Virus record (IMG/VR): IMGVR_UViG_3300024346_000306
Span: 1 to 31,829 of that record
Strand: one strand, 5' to 3'
From: a virus
Length of the DNA stretch: 31,829 nucleotides
Positions within the stretch are counted from its first letter, which is position 1; every line of letters starts with the position of its first letter. Positions 5,040 through 31,494 of this stretch are shown here, piece after piece. A program made the position numbers and the translations under genes. The notes below the pieces were generated by a model, which worked only from the letters and a program-made list of their open reading frames with translations, was not told the DNA's origin and made no database searches.

Positions 5040-8000
5040 ATGATAGCAGGCTCACTTGAAATCCAACTTTTAGCAGATATTGCCAGACTCCAGCAAGATA
5101 TGGATAAAGCATCAAGTGTAGTTGGTGGTGCTATGGGTAAAATATCTTCAAGTGTATCTACTGCTACAAAACTTTTGGGTGGTTTAGCCGCAGGCCTATC
5201 TGTGGCTGCTTTTTCTAGCTGGATTCGTGGTGCAATTGATGCTGCGGATGCTGCGAGTAAATTATCTGCTAAGACTGGTGTTGCAGTCAAAGACCTAGCC
5301 GGATTACAGCTCGCGTATAGTTTAGGGGGGGCTGAGGGTGATGCTTTCGCTAAATCAATGACCAAACTGTCCGTCGCGATGGTTGAAGGTAATAAAGGTT
5401 TGGCCCAATTGGGCATTAAAACCAAAACAGTTAGTGGTGAATTCCTAAGTACGAAAGACGTCCTTTATTCTGTTGCAGATTTGTTTTCAAACTTAGAAGA
5501 TGGTGCGTTTAAGACAGCAAAGGCCGTTGAAATTTTTGGTAAATCAGGCGCTGATTTAATTCCTCTTTTGAATGGTGGATCTGCTGCATTTAAAGAAATG
5601 GATGCAATGGCCCAAAAGTTAGGGTTAACAATCTCAGAATCCACTGCAAAAAGAGCTGAAGAATTCAACGATACCTTAGAGTTAGTTCGTTTGGGTAGTC
5701 AAGGTGTGGCTAGGGGGATTGCTGCTGAATTACTACCTACACTAACTAACCTAGCTACTTCATTTTTAGGTTCTATGACCGAGGGTGACAAGCTAAAAAA
5801 TACAGCTGATTTTTTAGCTAATGGGTTAAAAATTCTCTATAGTGTGGCTGTTGGTGTTGTAGAAATATTTAGTACGTTAGGGAAAACAATCGGGGCGACT
5901 GCTGCGGCCATTGTTGCTACTTTGAGTGGTGATTTTAAATTGGCAGCAAGTATTGCCCGTGAAGCATCAAAAGATATAGGTAATGGTTGGTTAGATAGTG
6001 CAAAAGCAATTTCGACTGCTTGGGAAGGTTCAGCCAACGTAGTCGTGTTAGCCCAAGCAAAATTAATGAAATCTACAAAATTTGTTACGGAAGATATGGT
6101 GGCTGCTGTTAAGGCTGTGTCCCAGGTCAAGGATGAATTTGAGAAATTGTATGCAAAAATTCAAGGCAAAGATCAGGGGGTCGATTCTGATTATGAAAAA
6201 AATCTAACAATACTAAATCGAGCGTATGAAGAAGATATACTCACTCTAGACGAGTATATGAAATTAGTGCTCAAATACAATAGTCAACAAAAAGTTAATA
6301 TTGATCTTGCAAAAAAAGAAGCAGACGAGATTGAAGCATTAAAAAACGCTATCGATAAGCAAAATGATTCGGCAAAATCAATGTTGGCTACGATCCAATT
6401 TGAGACAAAATTACTCGGATTGAATTCTATTCAGCGTGCAGAAGCTAACGCTTTACGTCAACTTGAAAGTGCAGGGGTCGTCGAAGGTACCGAGGCGTAT
6501 ATTAATTACGCAGAAGCTATAAAGGAAGCATCGATCGGTAAAGTAATAGTCGAAGAGCAAATAAAGGCCAATTCAGACCAACTTGCAGATACTAAAAAGA
6601 TGTGGGAGTCTGTTGATAAGACTGCCCATGACGTTTTTGTCTCAATTTTTAATGGAGGTAAAAGCGCTTTTGATAGGTTGCGCGATACTTTAAAATCCGG
6701 ATTGCTCGACATGCTTTATCAAATGACAGTTAAGAAGTGGGTATTAAATATCGCCTCTAATATAACCGGAGGGGGGGGTTCCTTACTACAAGCGGCAGGT
6801 TCAAGTTCATCTGGCGGTGGCAGTATGCTGAGTAGCGTCGGTAGCCTTTTAGGTAGTGGTGGTGCTATAGGTAATTTTGCAGGCGGGTTCACATCAGGCC
6901 TTTCCTCTTTCGGTAGCCTGGCGGCTACTAGTGGTAACCTGAGCGCGGGTTTTACTGCACTAGGGGCAGGAAATATTTCAGGAGGTCTTGGTTCCTTAGC
7001 GGGTACGTTAGGACCATACGCACTTGCAGCAGTAGCCATTTCCCAGATTATTAAAAATACTAAGGGGGAAACTCGTGGTGGTGGGCAGTATGGTTACTCT
7101 TTCGACGGTACTGTGCAAAATAACCGTCGTCCGGGTTTAAGTGTAAATGCATCACCTGGTAGTGTTGCATTTTTAGAAGGGCCTAGTGGTGGTGAACTTG
7201 GTGGGGACGCAGTCAGAACCGCGATAGCCGCTACAGTACAAGGTATCAATGCAACACTTAAAGCTGTGGGGTCAAGCGCTGCGTTAACTGGTTTTCAAGC
7301 AGCGCTTGAAACTAGTGGTAAGGGCCGCGGAGGGGTGTTCGCCGGAGGCATGCTAAATACCGGAGTGGCTTTTGGTGAGTCAGGATCAGGTGATAATTAC
7401 CGAGGGACTCTATTTGAAAAATCCAGCTCACAAAGTCCAGATGCTAAAACGGCTCTTGCAAACTTTTCGCTTGATCTAAAGCAAGCGACCATTCAGGCAT
7501 TGCAGGCCGCAGTTGATTTGCCTAAATCAATCTCGGAACAATTGAGAGGGATCAACGCTGAAAGTCTTGCGGATGATGCGACAAACAAATTACTTGGCGC
7601 GATCAACTCCCAAATTGTTGCAGTTACTGAATTTAGAGATGCGATCGCCACGTTACCGTTTGTCGGTTTGCGTGATTTGAGTTTTGATACGGCTGACGCT
7701 TTGCTTAAATTTACTGGAGGCATTCAAGGTATCAGCTCCCAGTTAGCATCATTCGACAAGAATTTTTATAACGAGGCAGAACGGGCTACAAAGCAAAGTG
7801 AAGAAGTAACTAAACAAATGACTAACCTTGGTTTTTCAAGTATTAAAACAAAAGAGGAATTCAGAAGCTTGATTGAAGGAATGAGTGTTACAGACGAGGC
7901 GAGTGCTAAAACTTTTGCCAGCCTATTAGCTGTATCTGACGCATTTGCCCAAGTATCAGACCGAGCAAATGACTCTGCTAAAGCTATTGCAGAAGCTCAA

Positions 8001-18511: not shown

Positions 18512-18541
18512 ATTGTACAACGTATTCAGGTGTTGTACAAC
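18512..18541 (-). promoter_or_regulatory. Paired-palindrome promoter/operator (copy 1)
   Basis: ATTGTACAAC (18512-18521) and GTTGTACAAC (18532-18541), 20 bp apart. On the minus strand this reads TTGTAC (-35 position), 17 bp, TACAAT (-10 position), about 45 bp before the ATG at 18467. The same arrangement recurs near 20012, 24781 and 27668. Confidence 0.7.
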
Positions 18542-18873: not shown

Positions 18874-19695
18874 TTATACAGCCATCGTCATTTTGATTGG
18901 CTCACCATGAGAGTAGCCTGCTAAGCGTACTGATGTACGCTTAAATGATGTTACGGGGGCACCTAACGCAGACTCAAGCACTAAAGTCGGGGGCTTGTGA
19001 ATCTCACGTTGTATATACGCCCTTACACCCTCATCATTAGATGTGTATATATGCGCATCGGCTAAAAAGGCAGTTAGCTTTCTAGGTTTTAGCATCAACT
19101 CGTTAGCAATTAGAGTTTGCAATAACGCATAGCTAGCAACATCAAAAGGCAAGCCAAGGGCTATATCAACGGACCGCATATAGAAGCACAAATCTAAAAA
19201 CCCATGAGCAATTGATAGCTGCCACATAACATGGCATGCAGGTAGCGCAACTAATGAGCTATCTTGTGCCTCATCGGGCAACCATGCGGACACTAGCAAA
19301 CGCCTAGAATTTGGGTTTGCTTTGGCTTCCGCAAGTACAAAAGCCAACTGGTCCAAATCCCCCGGTTGGGATCCACGCCAAACGCGACCATAAATAGGAC
19401 CAAGATCTGTGTTATTAGGTCTATTTGTTCTTGCATTAAAATCCGCAAGGTTTGCGTCCCAAATATGACAACCTCGTGCGTGGAATTCACGAATATCGTG
19501 AATTCCATGTATAAAGCATTCAAGCTCGGCTGCAACAACGTTAAATGCTAATTTACGACCTGTTATAGCGGGGAACCCGTCTCGTAAATCAAAATCAATG
19601 ACTTCATGATGCACGCTACGTACTTCTCCGGCACGGGACTTTTTTAAAACACCGTTGGAATAAACACGGCTAATTAGGTTGCGATAGTCTTTCAT
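18874..19695 (-). CDS. Thymidylate-synthase-family enzyme, predicted dCMP-specific
   Basis: 273 residues, full ThyA length. Visible motifs: the helix with E57 of AAELECF, W79 of IWDAN, LGPIYGRVWR (Y102), NPNSRRLLVSAW (R131/R132 phosphate binding), LPACHVMWQL with catalytic C154, FYMRSVDIALGLPFDVASYALL, DAHIY (H215, Y217) and C-terminal IKMTMAV for folate closure. The key oddity is D185 in GLPFD: ThyA enzymes have Asn here (GLPFN), which recognises uracil, while dCMP hydroxymethylases have Asp, and Asn-to-Asp mutants of ThyA prefer dCMP. I therefore predict a dCMP methylase or hydroxymethylase rather than an ordinary thymidylate synthase; which product is made cannot be told. SD AAGG precedes the ATG. 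Confidence 0.82.
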   Translation of the reverse strand: MKDYRNLISRVYSNGVLKKSRAGEVRSVHHEVIDFDLRDGFPAITGRKLAFNVVAAELECFIHGIHDIREFHARGCHIWDANLADFNARTNRPNNTDLGPIYGRVWRGSQPGDLDQLAFVLAEAKANPNSRRLLVSAWLPDEAQDSSLVALPACHVMWQLSIAHGFLDLCFYMRSVDIALGLPFDVASYALLQTLIANELMLKPRKLTAFLADAHIYTSNDEGVRAYIQREIHKPPTLVLESALGAPVTSFKRTSVRLAGYSHGEPIKMTMAV

Positions 19696-20011: not shown

Positions 20012-20041
20012 ATTGTACATCATATTCAAGTGTTGTACAAC
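20012..20041 (-). promoter_or_regulatory. Paired-palindrome promoter/operator (copy 2)
   Basis: ATTGTACATC (20012-20021) and GTTGTACAAC (20032-20041), 20 bp apart, giving TTGTAC-17 bp-TACAAT on the minus strand ahead of the 56-aa gene. It overlaps the last codons of the DNA polymerase gene. A third, weaker half-match, GTTGTGCAAT, lies at 19996-20005. Confidence 0.68.
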
Positions 20042-21822
20042 ACTATTCCCAAATCTTTTAAAATTAATTCAGATTTTGTGACATACCAGGTACGATCTAA
20101 ATTATCAGGGATTGAATCAGGTAGGTTCATTAACGGGATTGCACCATCAGTCATAGCCACCTTGTTCCCATTCTTTTTGTAGTTTATTGCGCCGGTTTCA
20201 TTTGTTGCATAATACCAGCGCACTGCCTTACCTAAATATTTATCACCCTTTACCGCACCACCCGTCACTGAACGAACCGATACAAACTGACGAATGTCAC
20301 TACACATCTTAATAGTCGTGCTGATAGGTATATCTAACTGAAGATAATCAATAACCGCTTGAGTACAAATTTGAGCAGTAGGAGTTTTAGATAATTCTGC
20401 ATCGGCGTAAGTACCTTTTGATTTATATGAGCTATCGGGTTTAAGGGCTAGGTAGTTGTTAATATCTCGGGAATAAATTGCAGTGTATAGTGTCTCTTCA
20501 GTATTAAACCCAGTGGTCTGTTCCCATTGAGCGATAACCTGGTCCAAAAGTGCCTTGTTCTTTACAGGGCAATAAATAACAATGCCGTCTGTATTTGCAC
20601 TCACGACCCTGATTCCACAAGCTTCAATGGTCTCTATCAACATCAATAAACAAAGTTGCCCTGTAACGGTAGTTTGAATGAGCAGGTTCGGGCCATACAA
20701 CGCTGACCACCTGGACCCGAACTTACCAAAACTACCATTGATGGTAACCTTAAGAGACTCATTAACGACTTTGTTACCTTCTCGTTTTGCTTTGATCCGT
20801 TTATCTACAAGATTTTTATATACAGTCAAAAAATCTTTACCGATATGCTTAGGGTAGAGTTGCTGACTCAAGATGATATTTGGGTAGTAACTAGTCACAT
20901 CTCTATCAATAACCATATAATCCTGGTCAGAGAGGTAATGTACCTTTTTCTCACAAGAATGAATCCCACCAATGCCCAACTGATACTCACTAGAACCTAA
21001 TGCAACCTTGAGCTTATTGACTCCTTCAGGTTCCAGTACGTTGCCTTTTTCATCGAGCGTAAATGGTTGTGTAGTGAATACACCTAGTGCTCTTTGAAAA
21101 TCTGGGTGAGAAAATTTGATAAATGGTGGAGCGACATATTTAAAAGAGAAGTCTTTAGGTAATTCAGGTCTAAAGACTCGCTCGCCTTTTATTGCCTCAA
21201 TCTGTTTTTTGATTACCGCTTCGGCAATTTGTGCGTCTGACTTTGAGCGCAGGTCAATGCTGTATTCAACTCCCATTTGTTCTCGCAATGCAATCTGACT
21301 CTTCAATCGTGTATAAAGATCGATTGTTGTATCTAGGTCGTTAATGCAATAACTTCCCAATAGTTCACGCTCGTCAAAATTAATGAGTGCACTAGGTTCA
21401 ATAGGTAGATCTTGCATCCGCTTACTATGCAACCTTCCCCCGTAAATCTTTAAACTCGCCTTACCTGGGGCCACATCAATTAAATCAATGTGGTCAATGT
21501 ATTTACATTTAGGCAGTGAGTAGTTTGATTCGGCATCCCATGCCTTCAGGTCATTGACAATAATGTCGTCAGATAGATCTTTTAGCAGTTGATTATCAAA
21601 ATTGGCGATTGCACCTTTTAGCAATAGTAAGTCGTAACGCTTACCGTTAAAAGTCACAATAGTATATTTTGACAGTATGGCTTTCAATTGTTCTACGTCA
21701 AATTCTGACCAGGTTGAACGCTCGAAGTTCACAACTTTACCGTTCTCAATAGACTTAATCGCAATCAAAAAATAATTGGTATAGCACTCAATATCTAATA
21801 CACATTTTGGCCGATTAGTCAT
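20026..21822 (-). CDS. Family B DNA polymerase
   Basis: 598 residues from the ATG at 21822 (GGGAG about 10 bases upstream; a GTG at 21843 is an alternative). The exonuclease domain has ExoI VLDIECYTNYF, ExoII TFNGKRYDLLLL and ExoIII YCINDLDTT. The polymerase domain has motif A DVTSYYPNIIL, motif B LKVTINGSFGKFG and motif C SANTDGIVI. Motif C has Asn in place of the first Asp of the usual DTD but keeps the essential second Asp, as in many small phage B polymerases. It replicates the phage genome with proofreading. At about 600 residues it is shorter than T4 gp43 and lacks obvious protein-priming inserts. It overlaps the dCMP deaminase gene by eight bases. Confidence 0.93.
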   Translation of the reverse strand: MTNRPKCVLDIECYTNYFLIAIKSIENGKVVNFERSTWSEFDVEQLKAILSKYTIVTFNGKRYDLLLLKGAIANFDNQLLKDLSDDIIVNDLKAWDAESNYSLPKCKYIDHIDLIDVAPGKASLKIYGGRLHSKRMQDLPIEPSALINFDERELLGSYCINDLDTTIDLYTRLKSQIALREQMGVEYSIDLRSKSDAQIAEAVIKKQIEAIKGERVFRPELPKDFSFKYVAPPFIKFSHPDFQRALGVFTTQPFTLDEKGNVLEPEGVNKLKVALGSSEYQLGIGGIHSCEKKVHYLSDQDYMVIDRDVTSYYPNIILSQQLYPKHIGKDFLTVYKNLVDKRIKAKREGNKVVNESLKVTINGSFGKFGSRWSALYGPNLLIQTTVTGQLCLLMLIETIEACGIRVVSANTDGIVIYCPVKNKALLDQVIAQWEQTTGFNTEETLYTAIYSRDINNYLALKPDSSYKSKGTYADAELSKTPTAQICTQAVIDYLQLDIPISTTIKMCSDIRQFVSVRSVTGGAVKGDKYLGKAVRWYYATNETGAINYKKNGNKVAMTDGAIPLMNLPDSIPDNLDRTWYVTKSELILKDLGIVLYNT

Positions 21823-22246
21823 GCTTGATAAACTCCCATTCACGACCGCTTGCTAGCCATAATTCTTTGCCACTAGCCACATAATCTTCATCAACAACAA
21901 TTCGTTTTATTCCTGTACACAGCGCTAATTTTGTGCAGCTAATACATGGGGCAGTAGTACAATACATTGTGTCAGCTGCGTCAAAATCTTTAAGTCGGGC
22001 AATGGCATTTTGTTCGGCATGCGCAGACATACACAAGTCTAACCATGTTCCTGAAGGTAAATCCGCACCAATGCACGGGCTAATAGTGCAATGGGCTGAC
22101 CCGGAATAAGATCCGTTGTAACCTGAAGACAGGATATATCCTTTACCTGTAATTACGGCCCCCACTCGCCTACGAGCACAAGTTGCTCTTTTAGCGAACA
22201 CTCGGGCAACTTCCATATAAGTACAATCTAATGTCGGCCTAGTCAT
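21815..22246 (-). CDS. dCMP deaminase
   Basis: 143 residues of the zinc-dependent deaminase family: SAHAEQNAIA (zinc ligand H76, catalytic E78) and TTAPCISCTKLAL (zinc ligands C101, C104), plus the dCMP-specific N-terminal VGAVITGKGYILSSGYNGS region. It converts dCMP to dUMP, feeding thymidylate synthesis. Lying between the DNA polymerase and the hydroxymethylase genes, it competes for the same dCMP pool. SD AAGGT precedes the ATG. Confidence 0.93.
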   Translation of the reverse strand: MTRPTLDCTYMEVARVFAKRATCARRRVGAVITGKGYILSSGYNGSYSGSAHCTISPCIGADLPSGTWLDLCMSAHAEQNAIARLKDFDAADTMYCTTAPCISCTKLALCTGIKRIVVDEDYVASGKELWLASGREWEFIKHD

Positions 22247-22440: not shown

Positions 22441-23172
22441 TTATTTACACCATTTACTTGAGGGATTCAAAATCCTGTATTCAGATTTTGAAATTGATAA
22501 CTCGCCTGTTTTTACAAAATGGTCAACTAAATAAAACTGACTCGGATAGACGTGCAAGCTGTTTGCGTTCCAGTATAAATTTCCAATTTTGACTTTAGGG
22601 AAGTGCTTTGATATTTGAGCTTGTGCGAGTAGATGTACTTTTTCATGCCAAGACCTATCTCCCTGGTAATTTACCGTCGCATCATTACTCCGCAGGTTTA
22701 CTATATAGTGTAGCCTATTTGACCGAATTAACAGTTGAGTCGAATAAGTACACATAAAGTCCCGTTTACCTCTACTGACACTATCTTTGTGCATAGTTGG
22801 GCGTATGTAAATCATGACTGCCTGCCTACTATTACGATTAGCCCTAAGCGATAAAATTGCACGGTCAAACTGATTAAAATTTTCCTTACTGAAAATAGCC
22901 CACCCATAATTCGAATTGATGGAGCCATCGTGACCGGCCACCTTGCCCCATATTGCTGGAATAGGTGGAGGTATGTCGGCGATATTTAGTGACTGGCTCA
23001 AATACCATTTCAATTCTCGTTGATTCCAATCCTCATTAGGTACACCAAAAATCATTGGCGAATCTGCGATGAACGAAGCATTGATAATCTCTAAATTTCC
23101 ATCCTCAGAAAAGTCTTCCTCTATCAACTTTTCAGCAAAAATATCCCTGATACTCTGCACAGTCACGTTCAT
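22441..23172 (-). CDS. dCMP 5-hydroxymethylase (T4 gp42-like)
   Basis: 243 residues that follow phage T4 deoxycytidylate hydroxymethylase along the whole length: IINASFIADSPMIFG, RELKWYLSQSL, GSINSNYGWAIFS, NRNSRQAVMIYIRPTM, DFMCTYSTQLLIR (catalytic C141), VNLRSNDATVNYQGDRSWHEKV, SLHVYPSQFYLVDHFVKTGE and SISKSEY. D172 aligns with T4 Asp179, the residue that selects cytosine over uracil. The enzyme would use methylene-THF to make 5-hydroxymethyl-dCMP for incorporation into phage DNA. It overlaps the MazG-like gene by four bases, linking it to a dNTP-hydrolysing partner as in T4 (gp56 with gp42). Confidence 0.92.
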   Translation of the reverse strand: MNVTVQSIRDIFAEKLIEEDFSEDGNLEIINASFIADSPMIFGVPNEDWNQRELKWYLSQSLNIADIPPPIPAIWGKVAGHDGSINSNYGWAIFSKENFNQFDRAILSLRANRNSRQAVMIYIRPTMHKDSVSRGKRDFMCTYSTQLLIRSNRLHYIVNLRSNDATVNYQGDRSWHEKVHLLAQAQISKHFPKVKIGNLYWNANSLHVYPSQFYLVDHFVKTGELSISKSEYRILNPSSKWCK

Positions 23173-24780: not shown

Positions 24781-24811
24781 ATTGTACAACACTTTGAATG
24801 TGTTGTACAAC
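24781..24811 (-). promoter_or_regulatory. Paired-palindrome promoter/operator (copy 3)
   Basis: ATTGTACAAC (24781-24790) and GTTGTACAAC (24802-24811), 21 bp apart. On the minus strand: TTGTAC, 18 bp, TACAAT, about 75 bp before the SSB start. Downstream, a 7-bp inverted repeat (GTTGCAA 24749-24755, TTGCAAC 24768-24774) lies in the leader. Confidence 0.7.
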
Positions 24812-27667: not shown

Positions 27668-27698
27668 ATTGTACAACGCTTTGAATGCTTTGTACAAC
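27668..27698 (-). promoter_or_regulatory. Paired-palindrome promoter/operator (copy 4)
   Basis: ATTGTACAAC (27668-27677) and TTTGTACAAC (27689-27698), 21 bp apart. On the minus strand: TTGTAC, 18 bp, TACAAT, then the strong ribosome binding site of the 37-aa gene 10-15 bases further. It lies between the helicase operon and the YdaS-like regulator gene. Confidence 0.7.
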
Positions 27699-27713: not shown

Positions 27714-27941
27714 TTACCATGATAAATCAGGTCTGATTTGGGATGCAGTAAGGCCATGCCCGGGCATACTTGCAACCTTTAACACACTATCTCTACCTAC
27801 TTGCCCTCGAGTAAACCAATAACCAATACAGTTGCGGCTAACCTCAAATTGTCGGCCCATTTCAGCTTTTGTCCCATAGTAGGCTAGGATTTTATCAAGC
27901 GCGGCTTTGCACTCAGTTTTCATCAGATTTGACTGTGTCAT
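27714..27941 (-). CDS. YdaS/Cro-like HTH regulator
   Basis: 75 residues. ILAYYGTKAEMGRQFEVSRNCIGYWFTRGQVGRDSVLKV is a helix-turn-helix, and the ending TASQIRPDLSW matches the YdaS/Cro-like family (usually xxELRPDLY). These proteins are the Cro counterparts in many proteobacterial phages and bind short palindromes. The gene is divergent from the primase operon, with palindromes on both sides, so it is the best candidate to bind the GTTGTACAAC-type sites. There is no clear ribosome binding site; M7 at 27923 is an alternative start. Confidence 0.75.
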   Translation of the reverse strand: MTQSNLMKTECKAALDKILAYYGTKAEMGRQFEVSRNCIGYWFTRGQVGRDSVLKVASMPGHGLTASQIRPDLSW

Positions 27942-27964: not shown

Positions 27965-27997
27965 GTACAATTGTACATCTATTTTTTGATTTATAAT
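27965..27997 (+). promoter_or_regulatory. Divergent promoter with 12-bp palindrome
   Basis: GTACAATTGTAC (27965-27976) is a perfect palindrome sharing the TTGTAC/TACAAT words of the four paired sites. TATAAT (27992-27997) downstream is a good -10 box for the plus-strand primase operon, with TTGTAC 15 bp before it (or TAATAC at 17 bp). The minus-strand regulator starts 24 bp on the other side. Confidence 0.6.
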
Positions 27998-28005
27998 ACC
28001 TTTAT

Positions 28006-28088
28006 CATCGGATAGGCCAGCGCGGCCGAAAAGACAGTTCCTAGTCTGTTTTCCGATGGTCCTTTATACTAGGCTGTTTTCTAGGAAC
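28006..28088 (+). promoter_or_regulatory. Structured leader RNA of the primase operon
   Basis: CATCGGA (28006-28012) pairs with TCCGATG (28052-28058), enclosing two hairpins: GGCC/GGCC (28015-28027) and AAA-GA-CAG/CTGTTT around the loop TTCCTAGT. GTTCCTAG (28037-28044), mostly that loop, is the exact complement of CTAGGAAC (28081-28088), which holds the ribosome binding site for the ATG at 28095. The leader could therefore switch between folds that hide or expose the site. Confidence 0.5.
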
Positions 28089-28094
28089 AATATC

Positions 28095-28379
28095 ATGCTA
28101 AACCAAGCAAGGCTATGCTGTCCCAATTGCGGGGACACATGGTTGCATCAGCGACAAGTTGACTCTTACATAAGTATAAGCAACGATACCCCATCGGACG
28201 TTGGCATTCACGTGATTGTGGCCAAGCAAGTTAAAGTTGACACCGATATTTCTAAAAACCCAAGTAAAAGAAGAGACGGAATCAGGATTGCTTTTGAATG
28301 TGAAGCATGTGGTCCTGTACAACCCCTAGTTATTTATCAACACAAAGGCGAAACTTTCGTCGAATGGGAAAGCAAATGA
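28095..28379 (+). CDS. Zinc-ribbon phage protein
   Basis: 94 residues from the ATG at 28095, which has AGGA upstream; ATG 28056 is in frame but lacks a binding site and lies in the structured leader. Two Cys pairs (LCCPNCGDTWLHQ and FECEACG) make a zinc ribbon around a beta-rich middle with DISKNPSKRRDGIRIAF. The same pattern (CPxCGxxxLHQ ... MSGNPSxRRHGLxIxFxCExC) recurs in phages and plasmids next to replication genes. It overlaps the primase start by four bases. Role unknown, possibly DNA binding or regulation. Confidence 0.75.
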   Translation: MLNQARLCCPNCGDTWLHQRQVDSYISISNDTPSDVGIHVIVAKQVKVDTDISKNPSKRRDGIRIAFECEACGPVQPLVIYQHKGETFVEWESK

Positions 28380-30778
28380 TCAACTTTAAACCGACCCCTT
28401 TACCCGTCTTACCTGAAAAGATTCCACATGAATTAAAAGAGTTGCATCGTTGGGTTGTTTGGAAACTTGATGTATTAATCAAGAAAAATGGTGATACTGT
28501 ATGGAAAAAAGTGCCATACAGGACCAATGGGCGTTTGGCCCAGGTGATCAATTCAAAACATTGGTCTACTTATTCTGAAGCAATGGATGCCTATTTAACC
28601 GGTGCTTTTGACGGAATAGGCATTGTGTTTGATGGTTCAGACGATATTCACGGGATTGATTTAGACGACTGTATTGTTGATGGGAAATTAAATGAGACAG
28701 CTACCGAACTACTAGATCGTGTAGATGGATATGCTGAAACTAGTCCGTCAGGGACAGGTATTAAACTGTTCATTAAATCAAACTTAGCAATAAATGGTAG
28801 AAACAATAACGTTGAGGTATATAGGGACGGGCGATATTTTACCGTTACCGGTCATCAATTAAATGGTCATGAATGCGTAGGTGAATCTAGGCAGGATGTG
28901 TCTTGGTTTGTTGAGCGACATTTTAGAAGCAATGAGGCAATGAGCCTTGATGCCTACAAACCAAAGCTTTCTGATTGGGATGTGAACCGGGTGGAGTCGG
29001 AATTGCTGTCCTATGTAGGAGATATTGAGAACTATAGCTCATGGTTGCAATTAGGCATGGCGCTTCATCATCAGGGGGGCGGGTCGGAGGAATGGATGGC
29101 TTTATGGGATCAAGCCAGCAAGGCAACTCAGTCTTATGACCACAAAGAGATTGTATCTAAATGGGATTCATTTAATGACCAGCATTACACTGGTTCGGGC
29201 TCAGTCACATTAGCCTCTATCATTAAGGTCGCTCAAGAAAATAAGAAAGTTGAACAAGTAAAGATTTTTGACAAATACAGGTCAATGATTAGCGATGAGG
29301 CGGCGTTAGATCAACTTAGGACTAGGGTTATTGATGAAATCAAAGCAGATACTGCTTTGGACCATGTGACGCGTAATGTGCTGGCCGGTGAATTAAAGAT
29401 TAAGTTTAAAGCATTAGGTTTCCCAATATCTATTAGTGATATTAAGGCAATGATTAAGCCTAAAGTCCACGGGGGTGTGCCTGAATGGCTTTCCGATTGG
29501 GTTTATGTAACAAGCATTGATAAATTTTTTAATGTCACTACAAAAAGAGTTGTAAGCCTGCAAGGCTTTGGGGCGATGTTCAATAGGTTTTGTGGCGATG
29601 AGCCTGCTACGTGCCTTGCCCTAGACTTTTTCAAGATACCTACACCTGACAAAATCATTTATTTACCTGCAGCCGAAGACATGTTTTATTTAAATGACTG
29701 CCCTTGTGTTAATGAATATAACCGCAATAGTGCTCCGGATATTCCAGTGGAGTATAGTAAAGGGGACCTTAAGGCAATTGAGGCAATTGAGAAACATATT
29801 GCAATGATTCTTGTTGAGCCTAACGCTGTAGAAATAATGATTAGTTGGATGGCCCACAATGTCCAATATCCGGGTGTGAAAATTAGATGGGCACCTTTGA
29901 TTAAAGGTATTGAGGGAGACGGTAAGTCGGTGCTCGGTAACCTAATGATGGCTGCAATGGGTATGGTAAACGTTGGAATTGTGTCCCCTTCAGTATTAGG
30001 TACAGGCTTTACTAAATGGGCATCAGGCAGGTGTGTGAACGTACTGGAAGAGATCAGGATGGTCGGTCATAATAGGCATGATGTATTGAACACCATTAAA
30101 CCCTATATAACGAATGATCAAGTGACCATCCATCCAAAAGGCTGTGATGAGTATGTTGCACCAAATACAGTTAACTATCTCGCATTCACTAATCATCCTG
30201 ATGCCCTACCTCTAGAGGACACGGATAGAAGGTGGTGGATTCAATTCACACCATTTTTTGATCAAGAAGAATTAATAAAGGTTGCGGACACAACCTACTT
30301 TAGCAGGTTATTTGATGCAATAAGGGATCATGCACCTGCAATTAGGAAGTGGCTATTAGAGTGGAAGATGAGCCCATTATTTAATGCAAAAGGCCAGGCA
30401 CCTTCATCATCAGCTAAAAATCAAATGATAAGTCTCAATGTTCCAGGTGAATTTAGGGCCATTAAAGAGCTGATTGAACGAGGCGGCCACGGGTTTAATA
30501 GTGAGATTTTATCAAGTCGACACTTTACTTTGGCCCTAAGTTTTGTTGAAGATATTGAGGTCCCAAAGAGTAGCGCACTACCAAAAATGCTCATGAAATT
30601 GGGATTTTCTGTCTTTGAAAACCCCGTGAAATGGGAAGGCCAGGCTTGTACGATCTGGTTAAAAGGTTCGAGGTTAGGGGAGCTGTCCCTCACGTTTAAA
30701 GGAAAGGAGAAGTCAGAAATAAACAGGATTATCCGATCGATGCTTGAAAAAACAGGAGTAAATGACTTATTGAGCTAA
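28376..30778 (+). CDS. AEP primase-helicase (NrS-1 polymerase-like)
   Basis: 800 residues from the ATG at 28376 (overlapping the upstream stop; GGGAAAG fits). The N-terminus is an archaeo-eukaryotic primase-type domain: HGIDLDDCI (D95, D97), SPSGTGIKLFIK (123-134) and VEVYRDGRYFTVTGH (146-160). A PriCT-2-like helical domain follows (about 204-270, WLQLGMALHHQGGGSEEWMALW). The C-terminal half is a superfamily 3-like helicase (DUF5906) with Walker A GIEGDGKS (about 511-518), Walker B VNVLEEIRM and a conserved LAFTNHPDALPLEDTDRRWW. It should open and prime the origin. An unusual repeat region starts right after its stop. Confidence 0.9.
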   Translation: MINFKPTPLPVLPEKIPHELKELHRWVVWKLDVLIKKNGDTVWKKVPYRTNGRLAQVINSKHWSTYSEAMDAYLTGAFDGIGIVFDGSDDIHGIDLDDCIVDGKLNETATELLDRVDGYAETSPSGTGIKLFIKSNLAINGRNNNVEVYRDGRYFTVTGHQLNGHECVGESRQDVSWFVERHFRSNEAMSLDAYKPKLSDWDVNRVESELLSYVGDIENYSSWLQLGMALHHQGGGSEEWMALWDQASKATQSYDHKEIVSKWDSFNDQHYTGSGSVTLASIIKVAQENKKVEQVKIFDKYRSMISDEAALDQLRTRVIDEIKADTALDHVTRNVLAGELKIKFKALGFPISISDIKAMIKPKVHGGVPEWLSDWVYVTSIDKFFNVTTKRVVSLQGFGAMFNRFCGDEPATCLALDFFKIPTPDKIIYLPAAEDMFYLNDCPCVNEYNRNSAPDIPVEYSKGDLKAIEAIEKHIAMILVEPNAVEIMISWMAHNVQYPGVKIRWAPLIKGIEGDGKSVLGNLMMAAMGMVNVGIVSPSVLGTGFTKWASGRCVNVLEEIRMVGHNRHDVLNTIKPYITNDQVTIHPKGCDEYVAPNTVNYLAFTNHPDALPLEDTDRRWWIQFTPFFDQEELIKVADTTYFSRLFDAIRDHAPAIRKWLLEWKMSPLFNAKGQAPSSSAKNQMISLNVPGEFRAIKELIERGGHGFNSEILSSRHFTLALSFVEDIEVPKSSALPKMLMKLGFSVFENPVKWEGQACTIWLKGSRLGELSLTFKGKEKSEINRIIRSMLEKTGVNDLLS

Positions 30779-30780
30779 AA

Positions 30781-30984
30781 CCTCTAACCTCTAACCTAAC
30801 CTCTAACCTTTCTCTAACCTTATTAAGTCTTTGATTTATATATATAATATGCTTAAAAGGTTAGAGGTTATAGATAATAGTATAAAGTTACATACAGAAA
30901 TAATATATATCAACATAAGACATTAGCTATATATATTTCCCGGGGCAGACTAAAGTTTAAAACCTCTAACCTCTAACCTCTAAC
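30781..30984. repeat. CCTCTAA heptamer arrays, candidate replication origin
   Basis: Left array 30781-30821: CCTCTAA twice, CCTAA, CCTCTAA, then a degenerate copy. Right array 30963-30983: three perfect CCTCTAA in tandem. Between them, 30858-30870 holds the inverted form AGGTTAGAGGTTA, within a very A+T-rich stretch (TATATATA runs at 30839-30846 and 30930-30937). The middle copy can pair with either array. Position next to the primase-helicase gene and the iteron-like design suggest an origin; a transcription attenuator is the alternative. No gene is present from 30779 to 31005. Confidence 0.65.
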
Positions 30985-31005
30985 CTTTTTATTGAAGACA
31001 AAATC

Positions 31006-31494
31006 ATGATTAAAGTGGGCAATATCAATACGATTAAAGTGAGTAAACCTGGTTCTAAGGCGGTTGTTAAGTCTGGTTCTAAGGGGGTTGTTAAGTCAGA
31101 ATCCAGCGAACAGACAACGTTGGTTGCTCGTGTACGTAACCTACACCCTGAGCTGGTTCTTATGAGTATTCCAAACGGTGGGAAAAGGGAACCTCGGGTT
31201 GCCGCTCAAATGAAAAGGGAAGGGGTGTTGGCTGGGGCACCTGATCTATTCTTAGCTGAACCCCGTGAATGCTGGCACGGTTTATTCATAGAGATGAAGA
31301 AAAAGATCGGGGGTAAAATAAGTAGCGAACAGACGTCAGTTATTAAACTTTTAAAGGACAGAGGTTATCAGGTTATCGTTGCAGAAGGCGCCGACAAGGC
31401 CTACATCGAGTTATTGAGGTATGTCTATGGGGATAAACTACCTGATTGGCTTAATCGCCCCCATGGGGTTTTTAGCAGTAGTTTAAAAAAATGA
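31006..31494 (+). CDS. VRR-NUC domain nuclease
   Basis: 162 residues. Core: SSEQTTLVARV (E35), SIPNGGKREPRVAAQMKREGVLAGAPDLFL (N57, D80), LFIEMKKKIGGKISSEQ (E96, K98, Q109). This is the VRR-NUC pattern of the PD-(D/E)XK fold, used in phages as a Holliday-junction or branched-DNA nuclease. The first 33 residues are basic with a duplicated GSKxVVKS, encoded by a 24-bp tandem repeat. It overlaps the HNH gene by four bases. Confidence 0.88.
   Translation: MIKVGNINTIKVSKPGSKAVVKSGSKGVVKSESSEQTTLVARVRNLHPELVLMSIPNGGKREPRVAAQMKREGVLAGAPDLFLAEPRECWHGLFIEMKKKIGGKISSEQTSVIKLLKDRGYQVIVAEGADKAYIELLRYVYGDKLPDWLNRPHGVFSSSLKK

Follow-up and report, generated by a model that had tools for sequence, protein, structure and literature searches.

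The segment at positions 30781-30986 of a 31,829-base uncultivated phage record (the window; i.e., the whole stretch of DNA that was analysed) is very probably the replication origin of the phage, of the type known from PICIs and SaPIs, and is predicted to be read by the phage's own primase-helicase. The original prediction, an iteron origin with a duplex-unwinding element, is supported by comparison with relatives: the layout of the region is kept, the region stays with the primase gene, a predicted IHF site accompanies it in the close family, and wing residues of the primase-helicase co-vary with the iterons.

Results

Iteron arrays flank an A+T-rich core directly behind the primase-helicase gene

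The window has tail genes on the plus strand (1-14 kb), including those for a tail tape measure and minor tail proteins, replication genes on the minus strand, where a DNA polymerase is accompanied by an SSB, an exonuclease, and an SNF2 helicase, a CI/Cro-like gene on the minus strand, and after it, on the plus strand, a small open reading frame, the primase-helicase gene, a VRR-NUC gene, and an HNH gene. The N-terminal primase/polymerase region of the primase-helicase resembles NrS-1 PrimPol (6k9a, 6a9w) and PDB 7ola, which are AEP structures. The features on which the analysis draws are as follows:

20026-21843, minus strand: DNA polymerase
27714-27941, minus strand: CI/Cro-like gene
28307-30778, plus strand: primase-helicase (823 aa) with PriCT_2 and DUF5906 (D5/SF3-type helicase), proposed origin-binding initiator
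30374-30775, plus strand: C-terminal domain, predicted winged helix (residues 690-823; AlphaFold2 pLDDT 80.9)
30644-30646 and 30650-30652, plus strand: wing residues A780 and T782, which co-vary with the iterons
30781-30819, plus strand: left iteron array, five CTAACC cores (30784, 30791, 30796, 30803, 30814; spacings 7, 5, 7, 11)
30822-30935: A+T-rich core (80.7% A+T), proposed unwinding element, interrupted by the central iterons
30824-30836, minus strand: predicted IHF consensus site AATCAAAGACTTA (WATCAANNNNTTR)
30857-30873, minus strand: central inverted iteron pair AAGGTTAGAGGTTATAG, half-sites GGTTAGA and GGTTATA
30900-30937: A+T inverted repeat between the central and right iterons
30963-30986, plus strand: right iteron array, three CTAACC cores (30966, 30973, 30980; 7-bp period)
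31006-31494, plus strand: VRR-NUC gene, neighbour of the arrays, not constant in distant relatives

Tandem heptamers had been proposed on both sides of the core, and both arrays are confirmed, with five units on the left and three on the right as counted by the CTAACC core. Exact CCTCTAA occurs on the plus strand at 30781, 30788, and 30800 (left) and at 30963, 30970, and 30977 (right), and in inverted orientation, on the minus strand, at 30861-30867, giving six direct copies and one inverted copy within 203 nt; an eighth exact copy is distant, at 6754. In 300 Markov-1 random windows the maximum was 3 copies per 204 nt, reached in one window, compared with the 7 observed, and the array is the densest iteron cluster of the window, as is also the case in three relatives of 54-56 kb. 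The first copy begins 2 nt past the primase stop codon, in line with the predicted placement directly after the gene. The proposed inverted middle copy is present but is not single: it belongs to an inverted pair, GGTTAGAG at 30859 and GGTTATAG at 30866, of which the second half-site is degenerate. A one-mismatch inverted iteron copy (AAGGTTCGAGGTTA) also lies inside the primase coding sequence, at 30663-30676, and carries the C of CGAACC-type relatives.

Pairing of the middle copy with the right array over up to 16 bp, likewise part of the original prediction, holds exactly: AAAAGGTTAGAGGTTA (30855-30870) is the complement of TAACCTCTAACCTTTT (30974-30989), with a gap of 103. This perfect pairing, followed in the window by a T-rich stretch, is what would be expected of the transcription switch that had been offered as an alternative role, in which RNA pairing between the inverted copy and one of the two arrays would give a terminator or antiterminator before the VRR-NUC gene. 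Against such a switch, the region has no terminator-like site, one promoter-like site was found compared with 1.4 expected, the RNA fold has a z of only -1.66, with 13 of 200 shuffles folding equally well, and in relatives the T-run is not conserved and the downstream gene changes. We give this explanation almost no credence.

The A+T-rich core between the arrays, at 80.7% A+T, is the most A+T-rich 114 nt anywhere in the window. The inverted repeat between the central and right iterons has, in several relatives, a G+C base (CCGGCAG/CTGCCGG, CCAGCCA/TGGCTGG) that is absent from the window. The DnaA box has the consensus TTWTNCACA, for which there is no match near the origin region and there are three elsewhere in the window; a DnaA-dependent iteron plasmid origin was rejected for want of a box near the region. 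GC skew, suggested as a check, proved uninformative: the cumulative skew of the window changes direction near 28 kb, where transcription diverges, and not at 30.9 kb, and in three 54-56 kb relatives the skew extremes do not coincide with the array.

Other repeats and signals occur elsewhere in the window. An int-alpA RNA (Rfam RF02996, 44.8 bits, E 2.5e-6) is predicted at 28005-28074 on the plus strand, where the CI/Cro-like gene and the primase operon diverge. Palindromes like GTTGTACAAC (24781-24811, 27668-27698, 20012-20041, 18512-18541, 27970-27979) are mostly paired approximately 20 nt apart and lie mostly between minus-strand genes; with up to 2 mismatches the window has 31 matches compared with 16.7 expected, and they are possible operators of early or middle genes. 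Two different genes (18874-19695 and 22441-23172) match the thymidylate synthase family phrog_160, a 66-nt tandem repeat of approximately five copies, the first three 99% alike, lies within the first open frame (309-647), and a 24-nt direct repeat lies in the 5' part of the VRR-NUC gene (31049-31097).

The layout is kept in relatives and the iteron sequence drifts

A polymerase-based search returned 23 loci, and among 15 records searched the primase was present in 12 and the VRR-NUC gene in 11. In a 13-row comparison (the window plus 12 loci, among which L066 duplicates L067 and L065 duplicates L070), the order behind the primase is the same: the left array is followed by the A+T-rich segment and then by the central inverted pair, and the right array comes last, with mostly 75-103 nt from the central pair to the right array in relatives. 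The iteron cores differ from relative to relative (CTAACC, CGAACC, AGAACC, CGATCC, GGATCC, GTAACC), and L075, the primase of which is 27-29% identical, has the repeat GGGCCAGAAG. The copies within one phage vary in concert, with some degenerate copies in each phage. Conservation of the arrays, a check proposed at the outset, is thus seen as a kept layout with drifting sequence, in these 13 rows and in larger locus sets. The case named as counting against the origin, a close relative with the same primase and no arrays, was not encountered: repeats are visible by eye in 23 of 23 non-redundant close-family loci (window included; primase approximately 52-72% identical; enough downstream DNA). L004 is an identical 5-kb contig and provides no independent evidence.

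A primase profile search yielded 78 loci; after removal of those with less than 250 nt downstream and addition of the window and six loci of named phages, the set comprised 78 downstream stretches, 59 of them non-redundant. For each, the best inverted pair with a gap of 50-130 nt was compared with 100 dinucleotide shuffles, with p<=0.01 as the threshold. The threshold was reached in 35 of the 59 loci and in 12 of 28 held-out non-redundant loci from new contigs, compared with 1 of 53 coding stretches of the same genes; 24/59 and 16/28 loci missed it. Significant pairs of the first set have gaps of 50 to 124, and in 32 of the 35 the gap lies within 75-103. Repeats are visible by eye in several loci that the test misses (L088, L155, L158, phage chi L167, and BcepNazgul L166), chi having been tested on only the last 450 of the 941 nt behind its primase; none were seen by eye in L143 and Erythrobacter phage R16L (L170). 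Cultured phages with repeats behind the primase are Curvibacter phage PCA1, Vibrio phage 1.094, phiAxp-2, chi, and BcepNazgul.

The sequence WATCAANNNNTTR, which we take to be the IHF consensus, occurs exactly, on the reverse strand, in 19 of the 23 close-family loci, compared with 0.35 expected from mononucleotide shuffles and 0/23 in the coding control, and in the close family it lies just right of the left array. It occurs in just 2 of 36 distant loci and in 9 of 28 held-out loci. The whole 31.8-kb window has two matches, fewer than expected overall, so the weight of the predicted site lies in its conservation.

Central pair and right array could also be the arms of a DNA hairpin recognised by its shape. 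Arms of 13-31 nt with loops of 60-124 nt are common among the loci, and plasmid pRN1 requires for replication a stem-loop (21-nt stem, 58-nt loop) behind orf904, according to the available text of PMC4234260. But a left array of the same motif, superfluous to a hairpin, drifts in concert with the arms; the arms are themselves tandem repeats, in BPP-1 as well, where TTTGCCTCG occurs twice; the arms are mismatched in some relatives (e.g., in L109, central GGATAGA versus right TCGATCC); and the iterons co-vary with the wing. We consider a stem-loop origin of this kind unlikely, and favour iterons bound as such by the primase-helicase.

The array stays with the primase and not with other neighbours

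The constant neighbour of the array is the primase gene before it, and the gene after it varies. The constancy of the primase is partly by construction, since the loci were found through the primase, but the array's staying there is not. In the close relative L252 the array is followed by VRR-NUC, with a terminase gene (TerL) two genes later; in other loci the next gene codes for an endolysin (L148, L149, L192, L196), an SNF2 helicase (L136, L153, L171), a small terminase (TerS; L194), or a PAPS reductase (L150). Searches for TerL with phrog_2 (3/20 records) and PF05876 (0/20) were too narrow, and neighbours were then typed directly.

These neighbours bear on the possibility that the region is a packaging site before terminase genes, with terminase-binding repeats and an IHF site. 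The cosB site of phage lambda has R sites plus IHF, the position of TerL in L252 would fit, and the cos of BcepNazgul lies approximately 600 nt behind its primase. The array is nonetheless still behind the primase where an endolysin, SNF2 helicase, or PAPS reductase gene is next, TerL lies approximately 6 kb away in two distant records and near the other contig end in a third, and the iterons co-vary with the primase. A packaging function therefore seems to us highly improbable. A cosB site proper, next to cosN and terminase genes, was likewise set aside as a class, since distant relatives include arrays that are followed directly by a gene other than a terminase.

An operator array of a phage repressor, or an attP with arm sites, is as good as discounted. 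The CI/Cro-like gene at 27714-27941 would supply a repressor, and IHF and flanking direct repeats also occur at attP. Promoters at the arrays are not above chance, however, iteron copies are absent from the CI/Cro-like regulator's own divergent region, and a tyrosine integrase was found in 0 of 8 records (which may be fragments), a family that was detected in 14 of 14 control genomes; on the same count attP was rejected as a class, which calls for an integrase in the same element.

Wing residues co-vary with iteron bases

The C-terminal domain of the primase-helicase has predicted helices at residues 714-725, 737-746, and 757-764 and predicted strands at 734-736, 767-769, 774-776, 779-781, and 783-786. 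A Foldseek/VIA search with the model of this domain gave mostly winged-helix rows, with Z up to 6.0 and none standing out; P4 alpha and SaPI Rep are not among the structure matches listed, which excludes nothing.

To relate the domain to the iterons, half-sites were written from GG onward (GGTTAGAG in the window) and assigned by eye, and the columns of the protein alignment were ranked. Across 46 loci with 22 half-sites, column 780 ranks first of 650 for base 3 (z 11.0; next 8.1), and across the 46 loci column 782 ranks first of 650 for bases 5-6. For bases 4 and 5 taken singly, other columns lead, mostly in the protein body, which is the mark of common descent.

A rule assigning half-site classes was fixed before looking and was tested on 31 further loci (7 + 24) from contigs not used before: it was right in 9 and wrong in 6, made no prediction in 1, and met no recognised class in 15. 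In view of the misses, neither A780 nor T780 determines base 4. Among the 15 unclassified loci, read by eye, M780 accompanies base-3 A in L195, in a previously unseen motif, CCATACAAG; L203, L239, and L243 combine P780 with base-4 A, and L239 also combines Q782 with base-6 G; L173 is an exception to the R782 rule. As the unclassified loci were read with rule and wings known, the held-out half-sites are a test only in part.

In the pooled set of 73 loci (from which three held-out duplicates were dropped, as was L175, which has no half-site), with counts given as both, residue only, base only, and neither, M780 and base-3 A are associated at 9-0-1-63 (phi 0.94; next best 0.70), P780 and base-4 A at 6-0-1-66 (phi 0.92; next best 0.63), and R782 and base-6 C at 41-2-4-26 (phi 0.83; next best 0.65), each pairing being the top among 1967 residue indicators. 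A tree of the helicase part shows 5 changes of M780 and 6 of base-3 A, and likewise 5 changes of P780 and 6 of base-4 A. In independent pairs on supported branches (3 to 6 pairs), the two traits are never opposite on average; tree-aware sign tests do not reach 0.05, there being too few independent changes.

Wing and adjoining origin are exchanged as one piece

Between the primases of L104 and L105, identity is 95% over residues 30-330 and over 331-715 and 92% over 716-765, but only 44% over 766-823. In this last stretch L104 matches L089, L093, and L119 at 96-98% identity; its helicase part differs from theirs by 26%. The iterons follow the C-terminus: L104 has GGTTCGA, as do L089/L093/L119, and L105 has GGATCGA. 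In a second pair, L092 and L088, with AGAACC and CGAACC iterons, respectively, identity falls from 99% at residues 30-330 through 87% at 331-715 to 44% at 766-823. These patterns indicate that the wing and the adjoining origin move as one piece.

Given this linkage, co-variation that is raised throughout the C-terminus does not in itself argue for contact; linkage may inflate the whole domain, and only the ranking of single columns counts as co-variation evidence of contact. Linkage does not explain the first rank of single, alternating wing residues.

Discussion

The following mechanism is proposed. The C-terminal winged helix of the primase-helicase would bind the iterons, and in each half-site bases 3-4 and 6 would be recognised by residues 780 and 782 of the wing, as the co-variation suggests. 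IHF, at its conserved site, would bend the DNA beside the left array and bring that array nearer the central pair; the left array would be accessory and IHF a bending aid. From comparison with PICI/SaPI and pRN1/BPP-1 origins, the oppositely oriented central pair and right array are read as two opposed initiator platforms, on which two SF3-type helicase rings would assemble, approximately 75-103 nt apart. By analogy with SaPI Rep, SCCmec Cch2, and P4 alpha, and from the layout, the rings would melt the A+T-rich DNA between them, and the primase-helicase would then prime both strands for extension by the phage-coded DNA polymerase with SSB. Domain and origin form a linked cassette, so iteron specificity would change when both are swapped or mutated jointly, and patterns of such swaps are seen in the exchanges above.

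A broader reading, towards which we lean without great confidence, is that one origin architecture is common to a large class of tailed phages, cultured Casjensviridae among them, with iterons that can drift because the wing of the adjacent primase-helicase reads them. Specificity would lie largely in residues 780 and 782, making iteron bases partly predictable, wing and origin would have been exchanged repeatedly as a cassette, with a breakpoint near residue 765, and the 'stem-loop' origins of BIP-1/BPP-1 (perhaps also pRN1) would be origins of this kind viewed as hairpins. The replication origins of most uncultured phages are unknown; if this reading is true, those of many phages with this primase family could be found just behind the gene, and their iterons partly predicted from two residues. 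The natural initiator/origin pairs and domain swaps would then be material for the direct study of protein-DNA recognition and replicon incompatibility.

Comparison with known systems

NrS-1 PrimPol shares homologous primase and helicase regions with the enzyme here (6k9a, 6a9w, 6k9c). NrS-1 uses TTTGGTTA, according to the portions available of PMC8718748 and PMC7102993. By contrast, that priming motif is absent from the window's proposed origin region.

The origin of phage P4 is ori/crr. P4 alpha, like the protein here, is a primase-helicase with a C-terminal winged helix, which in P4 binds origin repeats, and its primase is of the TOPRIM type, as stated in the accessible part of PMC4234260. 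A P4-type origin with an alpha protein was rejected: the N-terminus here matches AEP structures (6k9a, 6a9w, 7ola) and not TOPRIM.

pRN1 and BIP-1 share with the present system an AEP primase, an SF3 helicase, a C-terminal winged helix, and an origin downstream of the gene. The available text describes their origins as stem-loops without iterons; for BIP-1, to which BPP-1 is nearly identical, iterons were set aside in favour of a stem-loop (PMC4234260). Here, and in BPP-1 as re-read, the arms are tandem repeats: in BPP-1 (L259, reverse strand), arms of 22 nt, separated by 60 nt, lie 465-570 nt past the stop codon of the primase, and each has two tandem TTTGCCTCG copies, which may recast the stem-loop origin of BPP-1 as iterons. 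A pRN1-type stem-loop origin without iterons does not describe the window, where the arms are tandem iterons and a third, direct array is present.

Among cultured phages, chi and BcepNazgul (Casjensviridae), PCA1, and Vibrio phage 1.094 have iteron-like repeats of other sequences downstream of a homologous primase. No origin annotation is among the features shown behind the primase in these four, and no literature on Casjensviridae iteron origins was found among the matches listed, subscription journals being mostly outside the search.

The closest likeness is to PICI and SaPI origins, those of Gram-positive and Gram-negative phage satellites. In the text available of PMC6092414, the origin of a PICI directly follows rep on its 3' side and always has two iteron sets with an A+T-rich region between them; for one such origin a test in E. 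coli is described. The iterons downstream of the genes for SaPI Rep and SCCmec Cch2 are bound by the C-terminal domains of these proteins, in the case of SaPI Rep apparently as two hexamers (PMC7581432, in the part available). The window has the same plan: two iteron sets flank an A+T-rich region directly 3' of the gene for a helicase initiator, 2 nt past the stop codon and likewise in relatives, and C-terminal iteron reading, known there (PMC7581432), is predicted here from the winged-helix model, the co-variation, and the domain swaps, which support it indirectly. The differences are an additional central inverted iteron pair and IHF site, an initiator of PriCT_2/DUF5906 build, and the carriers: these are tailed phages of full size, which code for tail proteins and a polymerase and, in relatives, for a terminase. 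With tail tape measure and minor tail genes present and an integrase in none of the eight records, the window has a PICI-type origin but is not a PICI; if our reading is true, an origin type described as peculiar to phage satellites extends to full-size phages.
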